Positions 25,040 to 36,040 of a stretch of 64,000 bases of DNA are shown one piece after another (the first letter of the stretch is position 1; the number at the start of each line of letters is the position of its first letter). Source of the stretch: a bacterium (GTDB lineage Bacteria; UBP6; UBA1177); assembly GCA_016290135.1 (NCBI GenBank), contig JAEESW010000004.1, positions 1-64,000 of the forward strand, in the 5' to 3' direction. The notes under the pieces were generated by a model that was not told the DNA's origin, did not search any database, and saw only the letters and a list, made by a program, of their open reading frames with translations. A program made the translations under genes and the position numbers.

Positions 25040-27034
25040 CTATTTCGATTTAGCGGCTTTGACGATGTTTTCAGCGGTGAAACCGTATTTTTCCATGACC
25101 AGGCTGCCCGGAGCGGAAGTGCCGAACGTATCAACGGCAATGATCTTTCCTTTGTCTCCTGCGTATTTTTCCCAGCCGAAACTTGTTCCGGCTTCAACGA
25201 CAACGCGGTTTTTGACCGATCTCGGAAGCACCGATTCCCTGTACGCAGCAGGCTGTTTCTCAAATGTTTCACGTGAAACCATGTTGACGACACGCACTTT
25301 CGATCCCTCTTTTCTCAAGGTTTCGGCAGCTTCGAGCGCGATGTGGACTTCGGATCCTGTTGCGATGATCATCGTGTCAGGAGCTGCTTCTTCAAGTATC
25401 GCGTAAGCTCCTTTCAGAGCGTTTTCAGCAGCGGCGTATTTCGTTCTGTCGATGACCGGAACATCCTGGCGTGTCAGAATGAGGGCAACAGGCTGGTTTT
25501 TGTTTTCGAGGATATGTTTCCAAGCGACCGAGACTTCGTTCGCATCGGCCGGACGCCATACTTCAAGTCCCGGGATGCAGCGCAGAGAGGCAAGCTGTTC
25601 GACCGGCTGGTGCGTCGGACCGTCCTCGCCTACCGCAAGCGAATCGTGAGTGAAAAGGAACACCGAGCCCAGTTCAGCGAGAGCGGCAAGCCTTATCGGA
25701 GGACGCATATAGTCAACGAACGAGAAGAAAGTTCCTGTGTATGGTTTGAGCATCCCGTGGTAGAAAATACCGTTTGCGATAGCTCCCATCGCGTGCTCCC
25801 TGACTCCGAAGTGGATGTTTCTGCCCGAAAAATCGTCGGCTGAGAACCATTTTTCACCCGAGATCGTCGTTTTGGTCGAGCAGCTGAGGTCGGCGTCGCC
25901 TCCTACGAGCCACGGAACCGCTTTGCCTATAGCGGCAAGGACTTTTCCGTCCGCGGCACGTGTCGCCATTTTCGTTCCAGCCTCGAATTTGGGAAGGATC
26001 TTATCCAAATTTTCGACTTTGAGTTCCTGCATAGCCTTGAACTGAGCCGCTTCTTCCGGATATTTCTCCGAATATTCTGCAAAAAGTTTGTTCCAGGCCG
26101 TTACGGCACGCTTTCCGGCGCGTTTTATCGAAGCAAAATCCTTTTTGACGTCGTCATCGACGAAGAAAAACTTTTCGGGATCCATTCCGAAACCCTTTTT
26201 TACCGCCGCAAGCTCCTCTGCACCGAGCGGAGAACCGTGGGAGGAAGAGCTTCCCGCCTTGTTCGGAGAGCCGAAACCGATAGTCGTTTTGACGATGATG
26301 AGAGTCGGTTTTGAGAGCTCTTTTTTCGCCTTTGCTATCGCGCGGTCGATCGATTTGAGGTCGCTGTTGCCGTCTGCAACGGTGAGGACCTGAAAACCGT
26401 AGCTTTCAAAATGTTTTTTTACGTCTTCGGTAAAGGTGAGCGATGTCGGACCGTCGAGCGAAATGTCGTTGGAATCGTAAAGGAGAATGAGCTTTCCGAG
26501 TTTGAGGTGCCCCGCGAGAGAAGCTGCTTCGGAAGCGATGCCTTCCATAAGGCAGCCGTCGCCCAAAAGTGCGTAGGTAAAGTGATCGATCAGCTCGAAT
26601 CCCGGCTTGTTGAACCTTGCTGCGAGCATTCTTTCAGCTATCGCCATGCCGACTGCGTTCGCAACACCCTGCCCCAAAGGACCGGTCGAAGCGTCAACAC
26701 CCGGAGTTACGCCGAATTCGGGATGCCCCGGAGTCTTGCTTTTCCACTGCCTGAAATTCTTCAGATCGTCCATCGAAAGTTTATATCCTGCCAAGTGGAG
26801 CATCGAATAGAGAAGTGCGCTGCCGTGACCTGCCGAAAGGACGAAACGGTCTCTGTTTATCCAGTCAGGATGCACCGGAGAGACCTTCAGATGCCGCTTC
26901 CAAAGCGTATAAGCTGCAGGAGCCGCACCCATCGGAAGACCGGGATGCCCCGAGTTCGCCTTCTGGATCATGTCTGCTGACAAAACGCGGACGGTATTTA
27001 CACTTTTTTCAGAAATTTTATCGGGAAAAGCCAT
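25040..27034 (-). CDS. tkt: Transketolase
   Basis: 664 residues, the standard length. Thiamine diphosphate motif DGCLMEG (region 155-180, ending in [11 protein letters not shown]), transketolase signature ADGNSDL, and the C-terminal [14 protein letters not shown] and [15 protein letters not shown]. Transfers two-carbon units in the pentose phosphate pathway. A longer frame to 27274 lacks similarity; ATG 27034 follows GGAG. A parS word (15 of 16) is embedded at 25265-25280 as codons for VSRET. Heads the operon tkt-rlmD-tcdA-membrane protein. Confidence 0.96.
25265..25280. promoter_or_regulatory. parS site (15/16)
   Basis: TGTTTCACGTGAAACC differs from the ParB consensus TGTTTCACGTGAAACA only in the last base. 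It lies inside tkt. Confidence 0.7.
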
Positions 27035-27067
27035 TTTCAACTCCACAAAAAGTTCACAAATCGGCTG

Positions 27068-27095
27068 AATATACAAAAAAATAGGCAAACGACAA
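27068..27095 (-). promoter_or_regulatory. Promoter of the tkt operon
   Basis: Minus strand TTGTCG (27095-27090), 16 bases, TATATT (27073-27068), CAGCCG, ATTTG. The rest of the 318-base divergent gap (27035-27352) holds a -10 for the opposing gene (TATAAT 27213-27218, ACAGCG, T-run) and no further gene. Confidence 0.65.
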
Positions 27096-27352
27096 GATAA
27101 AAATGATATCAGATCAATCTTTTGAAAAAGTTTTTTCAACAAAACCGGATCCGCCAGAGCAAGGTCTTTCCGATTTGAACATCCCCTCTCGTTTTTTTTC
27201 AAAAAATCGAGTATAATACAGCGGTTTTTACGGATTGAGATGAAATGTTGCCGCTCTTGAAAATGCATGCGCAAGACCGGATCCGAGAGTGTTTCTGCTT
27301 GCGAAAAGAGCGGTCGAGACGATATCCGGCGGTCCTGTTCACGGAGGAGAAT

Positions 27353-28045
27353 ATGTGCACAAGCATAATTTCAAACAGAAAAAAGACGATAGTCGGCTGG
27401 AACCTCGATATTCTCGATATGGAATACCGCGTGCGGCCCGACAAACTCGGCGTATATATCGAGATAAACGACCCGAAGGAAGGGTGGATGCCGCTTTTCG
27501 GGGCGAATTCGCGCGGTGATTTCGTGGGAATGCCGACCTGCTGGCCGTTTGACAAAAGGAGCGATCCTGCAGGCGGGGAAAACCACATCATCCTCCTGGA
27601 TATCGATCTGCTTTTGATGAAAAAAACGCTGAAAGAGATCAAAGAGACCGCTGAAAAAGGCAGAGTCTGCAGCGTGCCCGGCATTACCTTCATGTCGTCA
27701 CTTTCAGATGCGGACGGCAATCTCCTGCAGATAGTTCCGGGGCAAGGCTGCATGTATTTCCAAAAGCCTAAGTTCAAGGTAATGACGAACTTTTCACCTT
27801 ACAAAATGGACAGCGAAACACATCCTTGGATGGGCTGGGACCGCTATCAGAAAGCGGCAGCCATGCTTGAGGCGGCAAACGACGATTTTGATGTCACAGA
27901 CTGTTTCGCCATACTGAAGGAAGTCTCCCAGACCGTGTGCCCGACGGTAGTTTCAATGGTCTATGACGTCTCGGAAAGGACTGTTTACTGGTGCGAAAAC
28001 AGAAACTGGGATCAGTTGGAAAAGTTCGATCTGCTCCAGAAATAG
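27353..28045 (+). CDS. Ntn hydrolase, acyltransferase/choloylglycine-hydrolase-like
   Basis: 230 residues. Begins Met-Cys-Thr-Ser (MCTSIISN), so after Met removal Cys2 can act as the N-terminal nucleophile. Further matches to the C45/C59-type Ntn families: VGWNLD (15-20, the place of the conserved Arg/Asp-rich strand) and [28 protein letters not shown]. These enzymes cleave amide bonds in beta-lactams, bile salts or acyl-amines; substrate unknown. ATG 27353 has GGAGG five bases upstream; a frame from 27245 would hide the Cys and is rejected. Confidence 0.75.
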
Positions 28046-28113
28046 ATAGAACGGCAGATTCTACAAAAAAACTGGTTTGTATCAGCCTTCGACCAGCACG
28101 AAAAAAACAGGCC

Positions 28114-28141
28114 TTGGCAAATCACACAAAATCTGTAACAT
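28114..28141 (+). promoter_or_regulatory. Promoter of the candidate small RNA
   Basis: TTGGCA (28114-28119), 16 bases, TAACAT (28136-28141), CATTGCG and a T-run. The promoter does not lead to any protein gene on this strand. Confidence 0.6.
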
Positions 28142-28147
28142 CATTGC

Positions 28148-28261
28148 GTTTTTAGCGCGAAGCTGAGAATTGCCGATGCGGTGGCACCCTGCTGTTTAGC
28201 GCACAGCGTGGGGACTTAATCCGGGTGGTGTTTGGCTCCCGGACAGCTTCACATCTTTTTT
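28148..28261 (+). ncRNA. Candidate free-standing structured RNA
   Basis: About 114 bases between the ends of the Ntn hydrolase and the opposing msrA. Closing helix GAAGCTG (28159-28165) with CAGCTTC (28244-28250), followed by ACATC and six T (28256-28261). Inside are a hairpin CACCC-T-GCTGT / ACAGC-GT-GGGG (about 28186-28212) and CCGGG / CCCGG (28221-28225 / 28238-28242), so a three-way arrangement is possible. A promoter of the common type sits upstream. I see neither the SRP GGAAGCAGC loop nor tmRNA or RNase P cores; 6S RNA is not excluded but the length is short. The rest of the 346-base gap shows nothing. Confidence 0.6.
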
Positions 28262-28391
28262 CTTAGCCCGAATAATCTAAAACTTGTTCGTATTTTTAAA
28301 CCTTTACCGGAATATTTCGCCGGTTAAGGTGGTAAAAATCGCAAAAAATTTAAAAGTTACCCCCTTAACTTGAAAAATGCCCCGTTAAATT

Positions 28392-28925
28392 TCAATTTTT
28401 GCTGTCAGAATATTCAGCCGGTCTTTCCTTCATCGCGATGCAAAAAAGCTCGAGCGGCAGATGGCAGTAGCCGTTGGGATTTTTGACAAGATATTTCTGG
28501 TGATACTCTTCCGCGGGATAGAAGTTTTCGAGCGGCATGACTTCGACCGCGAATTTTGCCGCTTTTTCGCCGAGAGCAAGTTTTTCGCTATTGACTGCTG
28601 CCTCGATATCTGGAAGAAGCGTTTCATCGGTGTAATAGATCCCTGTGCGGTACTGAATGCCGCAGTCGCATCCCTGCTGGTTGACCGAGAGCGGATCGAT
28701 CGCCCGGAAATAGTAGCCGATGAGCTTTTGTGTCGGCAGAACTGTCTCGTCGTATTCGATTTTCACTGTTTCGGCGTGTCCGCTGCCGCCGCAGACATCC
28801 TGATAGCTCGGATCTTCAGTTTTTCCGTTAGCGTAACCGACGACTGTTGATTTTATGCCGTTAAACTGATCGAAAAAACGCTGTGTTCCCCAGAAACAGC
28901 CCCCTGCAAGATAGATAGTTTTCAT
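28392..28925 (-). CDS. msrA: Peptide methionine sulfoxide reductase MsrA
   Basis: 177 residues. GGCFWG (8-13) with catalytic Cys10, VGYANGKTEDPSYQDVCGGSGHAE, YYFRAIDPLSVNQQG and the ENFYPAEEYHQKYL region are the MsrA hallmarks. Reduces methionine-S-sulfoxide in proteins. No signal peptide, so cytosolic. Single gene. Confidence 0.96.
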   Translation of the reverse strand: MKTIYLAGGCFWGTQRFFDQFNGIKSTVVGYANGKTEDPSYQDVCGGSGHAETVKIEYDETVLPTQKLIGYYFRAIDPLSVNQQGCDCGIQYRTGIYYTDETLLPDIEAAVNSEKLALGEKAAKFAVEVMPLENFYPAEEYHQKYLVKNPNGYCHLPLELFCIAMKERPAEYSDSKN

Positions 28926-29997: not shown

Positions 29998-31416
<1,419 letters not shown>

Positions 31417-33154: not shown

Positions 33155-36040
33155 TCAATAACGGATGCAGATGACGTCTTTTTTTGATGTTTTAAGGTAA
33201 TCGCTCTTCACCAGACCTTCGGAGAAATCGAGATAATAAGCTGAAGAATTATAAGAAGAATAAGTCGTCGAGGACCAGAATTTTCCGTTTGCTTTAAGAC
33301 CCGGAAACTCGGAAGCGGGAGCCGATCTGCTATAGTTTACAAGCGCCGAAAGTTCGTTGATATTCGGAAGATGCCATGCGTCGGATCCTGCATAATTTAG
33401 ATTTTCGCAGTAAGCGAGAGCCTCTTCCCAAGTCTTCTCTTCGGCGTAGACCTTTGTGTAATACGGTGCCGTTCCGCTGCTTGTTAAGGCAAGATACTCC
33501 TGCGAATTCGATATCTTCGTCGTGAACCATGCCGGCGAGATCTGTTTGCCGCGGACACAGAGAACATGGTTGGTATTGATCTTCGGCTCTTTATAGGAAA
33601 ATCCCGGCTTACCGTCAGGATCCGGCGTTGCCGCCCATACCGTATCGGAATAAGCGGTCTTTGAGCTGACTGTCCAGACGGCAGTCTCTTCCAAGCCGTT
33701 GAATATGTTTTTGAAAAGCTGGTCGTCGAACGATATCATCTGCATTTCGTACATATTCGGAACTCTCCAGTCCTTACGCCCCGCATAGTTGAGAGCCCCG
33801 CAGTAGACCTGCGCCTCATTCCAGTTGTAGAACTTTTCCGAAACGCCGGACCACTCCAGACCGTTATTGCTGTCGATGATATACATTTCCTCATCATTTA
33901 TTCCCTGAGTGAAACTCTTTTTGGTGCAGGAGTTGTTTCTGAACTGCGCGTCCTGACCGTAGAAACTCTCTCCTTCTGCAGGACATGTGATCTCGGCGCT
34001 GTTGTTGTAGCACTTCGTCTGTTCCGTGCAGACATTGTATATTTTGTTAACTTGAGTTTTTGCCGAATCGGATGCTGTGCAGTTTTTACCGTCCCAGAGG
34101 TATCCGCTTGTGCATCCGCAGTAGAAGCTCTCGAGATCTCCCGCTATACATGTTCCGTTTGAATCTGCAACGACTGCGCATGGGTTCGAGCCGTTTTTAC
34201 GACAAGGAGTTACACAAGCCGAACCGTCCCAGAAATATCCTTCGCTGCAGACACATTCGTAAGTTTCGACAGTTTTGGGGATGCAGGAGCCTGTAGAGTT
34301 CGTGATCGAGCAGCTTGACGAGTTGCACGGATCGGCGACGCAGTCTTCACCGTCCCAGAAATAACCGCTCCGGCAGAGAGCCGACCTGACGCACAGCGCA
34401 GAATACTTGTTGGTTGCTTCACTTTGAACAAGTTCATATCTGGGATAAAAGTTCACCATCTTTATATATGACGATGTCCAGTATTTTGCATTCAACATTA
34501 TGCCTTCTAAAGGAATGAGTACCGACATCAATTCGTTTTCATTGGGAAGTCTCCAGTCCGAATAGCCGGCATGGATCAGGTTTTCGCAGTATTCAAGAGC
34601 CTGACGGCGGTTTTTGTCAGGAGCTCCCGCCTTCATCCACATAAGTTTCGTCAACGGGTCGCTGTATACTTCCGTTCCGTTTGCTACCCATGTCTCAAGA
34701 TCCTGAAAATCAGACATTTCATCGCCGTGGACACACAGCGCATAAGCTTTACTGTCAGAATCCACATTGATCAGTTTCAAACTTTTGGAATAAGAGATGT
34801 TCGCAACCCAGACCCTGGTAATTCCCGAGTTGCTCCAGTAATCGACGTTCGTGTAATCGCCGAAATAGGTCTTGAACGATTTGTCAAAAAGCATCGTCAT
34901 AAGTTCGTGTATGTTAGGAAGTCTCCAGCCGGCATTCTGCTGAGCATTGAGGCTTTCGCAATATTCCGCGGCTTCAGCATAGCTAAGGGTGTTTTCCGAT
35001 ATTTTTCTGCTCCACTCAAGCCCGGTCGTGACGCTTGTCAGCGTTTCTCCGCCTTCTTCAAAGTACTGAGTGAGGAAGTGCGGACTCCCGGCATACTGCG
35101 GGTCCTGACCGTAGAGATCCTCGCCCGGCACAGGACATTCGATATTGCTGTTATATCCCAAGTCATATCCGTAGCATCTGGTCTCTCCGGTGCGGAGATT
35201 GCCGAAAGCAGGCCTGTCGCCGGTGCAGCCGAGCATCGTTCCGTTCCAGAAATACCCCTGTTCGCAACCGCAGATATAATCATTATGACTTATCGGATAA
35301 CAAGTTCCGCCCTGCGCAAGATCGAAAGTTGCACAAGGATTGTTGTAACACGGATCGACACATTCAGAGCCGTTCCAAAAGTAGCCCTCTTTGCATTCGA
35401 AACAGCAGTTCCAGCAATTTTTTTCATTATACTTCCCCTCAGCCGACGGAGAATAATCTTCAGCACCGGGATTCCAGTTCTGGTTCACTTCCGAACTGCC
35501 GACCCATTCGGCGTTTTGGGGAAGACCTTCGCACTGTACGACTCTCCGTTCCACCTCACAGCTGCTGCCGGACCACTGATAATGTTCGAGGCATCCGCAG
35601 GTATAGCGGTAATAATCGTTCTTGTTTTCGTTGAACGAACACTTGCCGTCTGAATCCGGCATATCATTACACGGGTTGGGATCGCACGGATCGAAACACT
35701 TTTCGGTTTCCCAGTCCCATGCATAGTTTTCGATACATTCGCATTCGTAGTAGCCCTCATGCGAGATACATCCTGTCGCATTCTCTATGCCTGCACACGG
35801 ATCGTCGGAACACGGATCAGGAGCGGCGGTGTCCGCATCGTCAGATGTCGTGTCTGCGTCATCCGGAGCTTCAGTGTCACCGGTCGGTTCAGTGTCTCCT
35901 GTCGGTTCAGTGTCGGCCGTGTCCTCGTCAGTCACCGTCTCACCCGTGTCAGGGTTGTCCTCAGTCTTCTTCTTACCGCCGCACGAAACAACAAAAATAA
36001 CTGCCGCAGCAAGCACAAAAGCAGTAAAGATTTTCTTCAT
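33155..36040 (-). CDS. Large lipoprotein with EGF-like modules and four DUF1566 domains
   Basis: 961 residues. Lipobox VVSC (Cys20), Thr/Asp/Glu linker with GDTEPT repeats to about 75. EGF-like units (PCSDDPCAG, PCDPNPCND, PCYNNPCAT) to about 285 are followed by two DUF1566/Lcl domains (WRLPNIHELMTML; WRLPNENELMSVL), two or three more EGF-like units (CNSSSCSI, NPCAVVAD), then two more DUF1566 domains (WRVPNMYEMQMI; WHLPNINELSALV). Each DUF1566 ends in a conserved CVRG/CIRY. Exposed adhesive or sensory surface protein by inference. Preceded by ATTATA (-10, minus strand TATAAT 36087-36082) and AGGAGG. Confidence 0.88.
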   Translation of the reverse strand: MKKIFTAFVLAAAVIFVVSCGGKKKTEDNPDTGETVTDEDTADTEPTGDTEPTGDTEAPDDADTTSDDADTAAPDPCSDDPCAGIENATGCISHEGYYECECIENYAWDWETEKCFDPCDPNPCNDMPDSDGKCSFNENKNDYYRYTCGCLEHYQWSGSSCEVERRVVQCEGLPQNAEWVGSSEVNQNWNPGAEDYSPSAEGKYNEKNCWNCCFECKEGYFWNGSECVDPCYNNPCATFDLAQGGTCYPISHNDYICGCEQGYFWNGTMLGCTGDRPAFGNLRTGETRCYGYDLGYNSNIECPVPGEDLYGQDPQYAGSPHFLTQYFEEGGETLTSVTTGLEWSRKISENTLSYAEAAEYCESLNAQQNAGWRLPNIHELMTMLFDKSFKTYFGDYTNVDYWSNSGITRVWVANISYSKSLKLINVDSDSKAYALCVHGDEMSDFQDLETWVANGTEVYSDPLTKLMWMKAGAPDKNRRQALEYCENLIHAGYSDWRLPNENELMSVLIPLEGIMLNAKYWTSSYIKMVNFYPRYELVQSEATNKYSALCVRSALCRSGYFWDGEDCVADPCNSSSCSITNSTGSCIPKTVETYECVCSEGYFWDGSACVTPCRKNGSNPCAVVADSNGTCIAGDLESFYCGCTSGYLWDGKNCTASDSAKTQVNKIYNVCTEQTKCYNNSAEITCPAEGESFYGQDAQFRNNSCTKKSFTQGINDEEMYIIDSNNGLEWSGVSEKFYNWNEAQVYCGALNYAGRKDWRVPNMYEMQMISFDDQLFKNIFNGLEETAVWTVSSKTAYSDTVWAATPDPDGKPGFSYKEPKINTNHVLCVRGKQISPAWFTTKISNSQEYLALTSSGTAPYYTKVYAEEKTWEEALAYCENLNYAGSDAWHLPNINELSALVNYSRSAPASEFPGLKANGKFWSSTTYSSYNSSAYYLDFSEGLVKSDYLKTSKKDVICIRY

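Follow-up and report, generated by a model that had tools for sequence, protein, structure and literature searches.

What occupies the 346-base gap at 28046-28391 of the window (the whole 64,000-nucleotide stretch of DNA that was analysed), and does it belong to one of its neighbours or act on its own? The flanking genes are convergent, because the + strand ORF on the left (27245-28045) has its last base at 28045 and the - strand peptide methionine sulfoxide reductase (PMSR) gene on the right (28392-28925) has its stop at 28392, coordinates that agree with the gap as originally predicted. The left-hand ORF gave nothing over the Pfam cut-off and nothing in NCBIfam, PHROGs or PADLOC; farther out lie genes for transketolase (25040-27274, - strand) and S-adenosylhomocysteinase (30016-31416, + strand). 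The original prediction for this gap was an independent structured small RNA, and this is supported by compensatory base changes, by reciprocal matches between models of two diverged types of the element and by a conserved promoter. Judged by such sequence comparison, the element is a new, uncatalogued family of structured RNA, accessory and stand-alone. Its features are as follows.

28114-28119, + strand: -35 element TTGGCA (TTG[AG]CA at this place in 6/6 promoter-proximal copies)
28136-28141, + strand: -10 element TAACAT after a 16-base spacer (spacer of 16 in all 6 promoter-proximal copies)
28147-28261, + strand: the RNA, ~115 nt (start inferred from the -10 element, end from the T-run)
28155-28158, + strand: 5' strand of pseudoknot PK1, GCGC, directly before P1 (30/32 cells pair, 8 copies)
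28159-28165, + strand: 5' strand of the closing helix P1, GAAGCTG (53/56 cells, both-sided changes in 3/7 pairs)
28172-28175, + strand: 5' strand of a possible pseudoknot PK2, GCCG (31/32 cells pair, shuffle mean 30.8)
28187-28194, + strand: 5' strand of hairpin P2, CCC and TGCTG (inner 5 pairs 40/40 cells, both-sided changes in 5/5)
28199-28202, + strand: 3' strand of PK1, GCGC, in the P2 loop (hand alignment)
28204-28212, + strand: 3' strand of hairpin P2, CAGCG and, after it, GGG (alignments)
28213-28219, + strand: unpaired conserved linker GACTTAA from P2 to P3 (alignments)
28220-28225, + strand: 5' strand of hairpin P3, TCCGGG (44/44 cells, both-sided changes in 3/6 pairs)
28233-28236, + strand: 3' strand of the possible PK2, TGGC, in the P3 loop (without covariation support)
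28238-28243, + strand: 3' strand of hairpin P3, CCCGGA (hand alignment)
28244-28250, + strand: 3' strand of the closing helix P1, CAGCTTC, abutting P3 without a linker (hand alignment)
28256-28261, + strand: T6 run, the presumed transcript end (sequence; end of the conserved block)

The sigma-70-like promoter TTGGCA-N16-TAACAT (28114-28141) has 9/12 consensus matches and is a weak match taken alone, as there are 7 promoter-like sites per 2.5 kb versus 2.7 expected. The promoter with a 16-base spacer that had been proposed is nevertheless borne out by its recurrence: TTG[AG]CA-N16-TA[AG][CT]AT precedes all six promoter-proximal copies of the element and neither of the two internal tandem copies, and the spacing is fixed in all six despite diverged spacer sequence. 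From this promoter the RNA would be transcribed on its own, ending near the T-run. Its 3' end is probably the T-run, because similarity between loci stops at 28259-28261 (the 3' limits relative to three other genomes are 28261, 28259 and 28260); the 5' limit of similarity to other loci varies (28104, 28043 and 28155). The suggestion that the unit has a T6 end held in part: the run is present and the conserved block ends there, but it is not a canonical hairpin-plus-T intrinsic terminator, because it begins 5 bases past P1 and was not listed by the terminator scan. Behind the first copy of a tandem pair in genome G001, the T-run doubles as the leader of the second copy. The copies vary by 1-2-base indels and the element is therefore not coding; noncoding character, compensatory changes in the helices and its own promoter place it, as a general kind, among the stand-alone structured noncoding RNAs.

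Eight copies of the element, four each of two diverged types (A and B), were found in 4/15 genomes of the genus. A blastn search of 61 genomes gave clear relatives in G006, G013 and G001, all of the same genus as the window. A covariance model built from the four A copies (R1) and run on 28 genomes of the phylum matched 4/28, all of them within the 15 genomes of the genus, and picked up each of the B copies (E 2.9e-8, 7.4e-8, 8.9e-8 and 5.3e-5). The genome of the window carries one of these four (G000:C57:10003-10114), G006 has one next to its A copy as a tandem, and G001:C27 holds the other two as a tandem pair. A second model (R2), for which just the four B copies served as input, was run on 290 genomes with the stricter filters used at that size; it matched the same four genomes (4/290) and every A copy in them (E 4.9e-10 to 8.4e-6), so that each type is recovered by a model built without it. 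One relaxed R1 match (G006:C27, 18 bits, E 0.46) was dropped, being inside a coding ORF. The carriers make up four of the nine genus genomes with completeness of 90% or more and contamination of 5% or less, the RNA being absent from the other five, and it is therefore accessory. Among the carrier assemblies are RUG12558 (deposited as uncultured Spirochaetales, with a prefix that we take to denote a rumen collection), RGIG7134 (water buffalo abomasum) and RGIG10212 (yak rumen). A pattern search of contigs returned 19, four of which were real by covariance model, all from the same genus. No copies outside the genus were found in the genomes, viruses, phages and plasmids searched. Pattern scans of viral contigs gave 0, 12, 2, 1 and 1 stretches, of which 14 (the 12 and the 2) scored nothing with R1 and the remaining two scored at chance level with R1 and R2. 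By blastn, type A had no match in phages or plasmids, and type B had none in plasmids and one chance 26-base match in phages.

Comparison of the copies shows a three-way-junction fold in which P1 closes the molecule, P2 and P3 form the inner hairpins and PK1 ties in the 5' end. In single-sequence folding the closing helix and two hairpins are the minimum free energy (MFE) structure; however, its energy (-44) is not lower than that of shuffled sequences (mean -41.6, z -0.60, 56/200 as good) and folding energy alone was therefore dropped as evidence. The single-sequence MFE folds of several copies also depart from the shared fold. The evidence comes instead from the eight copies aligned by hand, segment by segment and fitted to the fold, an alignment in which the four A rows are close relatives of one another, as are the four B rows. 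Omitting the outer CCC/GGG pairs of P2, which are present only in type A, 198/204 pair cells are standard in this alignment, compared to a mean of 160.9 when the 3' letters were dealt out anew 5000 times (0/5000 reached 198), and both-sided changes occur in 14/26 pairs, compared to 8.6 in the shuffles (0/5000 as high). Each type taken alone gives the same picture, with 99.1% of cells paired in the type A alignment (34.8-46.0% in slid versions) and 92.0% in the type B alignment (32.1-48.6%), and several G-U pairs are retained across copies. The closing helix and two inner hairpins of the ~114-base unit originally described have thus been upheld by compensatory changes, and the covariation check in relatives that it called for came out in its favour.

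A contact that was not in the original prediction, PK1, would pair the four bases that precede P1 with the loop of P2. This pseudoknot between the 5' end of the RNA and the P2 loop is supported by the alignment, as shuffles match its 30/32 cells 1 in 5000 times and its paired variants include GCGC/GCGC, GCGC/GCGU, GCAC/GUGC, GCCG/CGGC and GCUG/UGGC; the fourth pair is mismatched in two B copies. Likewise added to the earlier description are a further copy that the window's genome carries on G000:C57 and the tandem arrangements seen in other genomes. A second pseudoknot (PK2), between J1 and the P3 loop, is consistent with the alignment and is kept only as possible, because shuffles pair equally well.

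With regard to known families, Rfam gave no match at gathering level in the window, none below E 1.8 for the element and none up to E 5 in the five other copy-bearing loci, in line with the earlier statement that no Rfam family was recognisable. The 13-base core and the names RUG12558, RGIG7134 and RGIG10212 were not found in the papers searched, and novelty in print has been tested only to that extent so far. GOLLD, ROOL and OLE (PMC12286853) are orphan stand-alone structured bacterial RNAs. The RNA described here resembles them as a stand-alone noncoding RNA of complex fold and uncertain role, and differs in having no Rfam match. GOLLD and ROOL often lie in phage or mobile DNA, and all three are several times larger than this ~115-nt RNA. 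The pRNA of phage phi29 is a ~120-nt three-way junction whose loops pair; the likeness is in the similarly sized three-way junction with a loop contact, whereas the supported loop contact here reaches the 5' end of the RNA itself, there is no Rfam match, and one of the eight copies overlaps a phage gene.

On balance, we favour the view that the element is a complete gene of its own, encoding an accessory noncoding RNA of ~115 nt that stands alone and would work in trans by means of its fold, with protein binding as the likeliest mode. The fold and the conserved unpaired bases, namely the GACUUAA linker and the P3 loop, would be the parts through which it acts. We infer protein binding only because the fold is complex and Hfq is lacking: an Hfq gene was found in 0/15 genus genomes (5/14 in the positive control), and the RNA is therefore not an Hfq-type sRNA, leading us to regard a protein-bound RNA as more probable than an antisense sRNA of that type. 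The family is uncatalogued, and the covariation that supports it was drawn from no more than eight copies, all within a single uncultured genus. RNAs so patchy and so confined to one lineage are easily overlooked by surveys requiring wide conservation. The movable and tandem organisation, running from promoter to T-run, and the defined pseudoknot make it a concrete, testable object, and a bound protein, if found, could reveal a new ribonucleoprotein.

The nearest competitor is a trans-acting regulatory sRNA that would control mRNAs by base pairing, Hfq-free, through its unpaired GACUUAA or U-rich parts. The promoter, U-rich end, stand-alone position and tandem paralogues would all suit such a molecule. 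Most of the RNA, its own 5' end included, is however taken up in a conserved tertiary-like fold, and Hfq is missing in 15/15 genomes, and so we consider this explanation rather unlikely, if the best of the alternatives.

The surroundings of the copies bear on both the supposed neighbour dependence and a possible tie to defence systems. From promoter to T-run, the unit recurs in varied surroundings, alone or as tandem pairs and in both orientations to its neighbours. A riboswitch or leader of a neighbouring gene is excluded because the neighbours are convergent in the window and the flanking gene and orientation change from copy to copy, which extends the original argument from convergence. The G013 A copy has a YhcG-type nuclease gene on one side and RlaP (PF10127, a Pfam match for the G013 protein and assigned in G006 by homology) on the other, with an EcoRI-type methylase farther out; the G006 A copy adjoins RlaP and a YafQ toxin gene; and in G001 the A copy shares bases with the 3' end of a gene resembling a phage minor-head gene, with a C5 methylase nearby. 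The B copies of G000 and G001 have an MmeI-type IIG enzyme gene (divergent) on one side and a 79-aa hydrophobic ORF (convergent) on the other. The window locus is without any of the RlaP, YhcG, YafQ, MmeI, methylase, phage or 79-aa ORF neighbours seen elsewhere. RlaP, the MmeI-type IIG enzyme and the 79-aa ORF were each considered as a partner gene and rejected, as none tracks the RNA over the 15 genomes: RlaP is in 7/15, mostly without the RNA, the MmeI family is in 14/15 and the 79-aa ORF is in 3/15, one of these without the RNA. No single gene accompanies all copies at the RNA loci examined. Separately, this genus is unusually rich in MmeI-type IIG genes, with up to 18 matching pieces per genome, many of them fragmented (L082 6887-9847 and relatives).

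It is from these surroundings that one could argue for an RNA belonging to a mobile or defence system, which would travel with restriction-modification, toxin or phage genes and serve them or counter-defence. Its patchy presence in 4/15 genomes, its movable and tandem copies and the overlap with the phage minor-head gene are consistent with this. A PADLOC gene (E at most 1e-10) lies within ~1.5 kb of 4/6 RNA loci (MmeI-type IIG twice, the one in G001 being counted as a homologue of the other, YhcG and C5 methylase). However, defence genes were also near 3/13 chance loci (4/13 if UvrA-like matches count), a comparison in which the scan took in every ORF of 100 aa or more at the chance loci (39 in all) and only selected proteins at the RNA loci, which are moreover not independent; the association is suggestive at most. 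The window locus itself has no such gene, most RlaP-bearing genomes lack the RNA, MmeI relatives are nearly everywhere in the genus and no gene is at all copies. We therefore find a role of this kind improbable. Slightly more doubtful still, as a speculation on what the family might signify, is an accessory RNA class with its 5' end pseudoknotted into a hairpin loop, spread as a cassette through variable, defence-rich sites, multiplied in tandem and forming the core of a phage-defence or counter-defence ribonucleoprotein.

It is very unlikely that the element works at the level of DNA, as a single-strand hairpin, the end of a mobile element or a recombination site, with a merely coincidental promoter. 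Changing context, inverted repeats and the sharp end of the block at the T-run could be read in this way, but the promoter holds its fixed spacing in 6/6 promoter-proximal copies over diverged spacer sequence, G-U pairs are kept, long-range contacts such as PK1 are typical of folded RNA, and no transposase appeared among the family matches of the scanned neighbouring ORFs.

The 79-aa ORF, whose stop lies ~5 bases past the 3' end of the B RNA in convergent orientation (G000:C57 and G001:C27), raises the thought of a type I antitoxin RNA paired with a hydrophobic toxin. This was rejected, and we give it hardly any credence, since the small ORF stands beside B copies in two genomes only, is found neither at the A loci nor in the B-carrying G006, and is present in one RNA-less genome. 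The ORF has no Pfam match (L042 1617-1856; L040 1003-1275) and is a 90-aa frame in G001.

Equally remote is a diverged form of 6S, SRP, RNase P, tmRNA or Y RNA, which the size and closed-end fold recall in the general outline of 6S or Y RNAs, since there is no Rfam match, no TROVE/Ro60 gene in the 15 genomes and, unlike housekeeping RNAs, the element is absent from 5/9 good genus genomes. The bacterial Y RNA YrlA is ~110 nt long with an end-closing helix and sometimes lies near RNA-repair genes; the likeness extends to size, closing helix and the two A copies that adjoin RlaP. The genus of this RNA is however without TROVE/Ro60 (0/15 genomes, 1/14 in the positive control), and it is therefore not a Y RNA, nor does it match the family in Rfam. 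6S RNA likewise is stand-alone with closed ends and its own promoter, features shared here, and forms one long bulged rod. This RNA differs by its three-way junction and pseudoknot and by its patchy distribution, and 6S was ruled against as no Rfam 6S model matched.

Several further observations were made at this locus. The stretch 27135-28424, from transketolase to methionine sulfoxide reductase, is a variable site at which other members of the genus have RlaP, YhcG or YafQ-type genes. Just 3' of the RNA, at 28290-28400, is a second conserved noncoding element, present as one copy each in 9/15 genus genomes. In four of its nine genomes (G014, G009, G012 and G005) the gene immediately downstream of it encodes an AAA_14/DUF4143 ATPase, called by Pfam on the G014 copy and by likeness of the N-terminus in the other three. 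No such ATPase gene is beside the element in the window, where it looks like a remnant. Elsewhere in the window, 33155-36040 (- strand) encodes a predicted lipoprotein of 961 aa, in which an acidic, T/D-rich stretch at the N-terminus and cysteine-rich EGF-like repeats were made out by eye.
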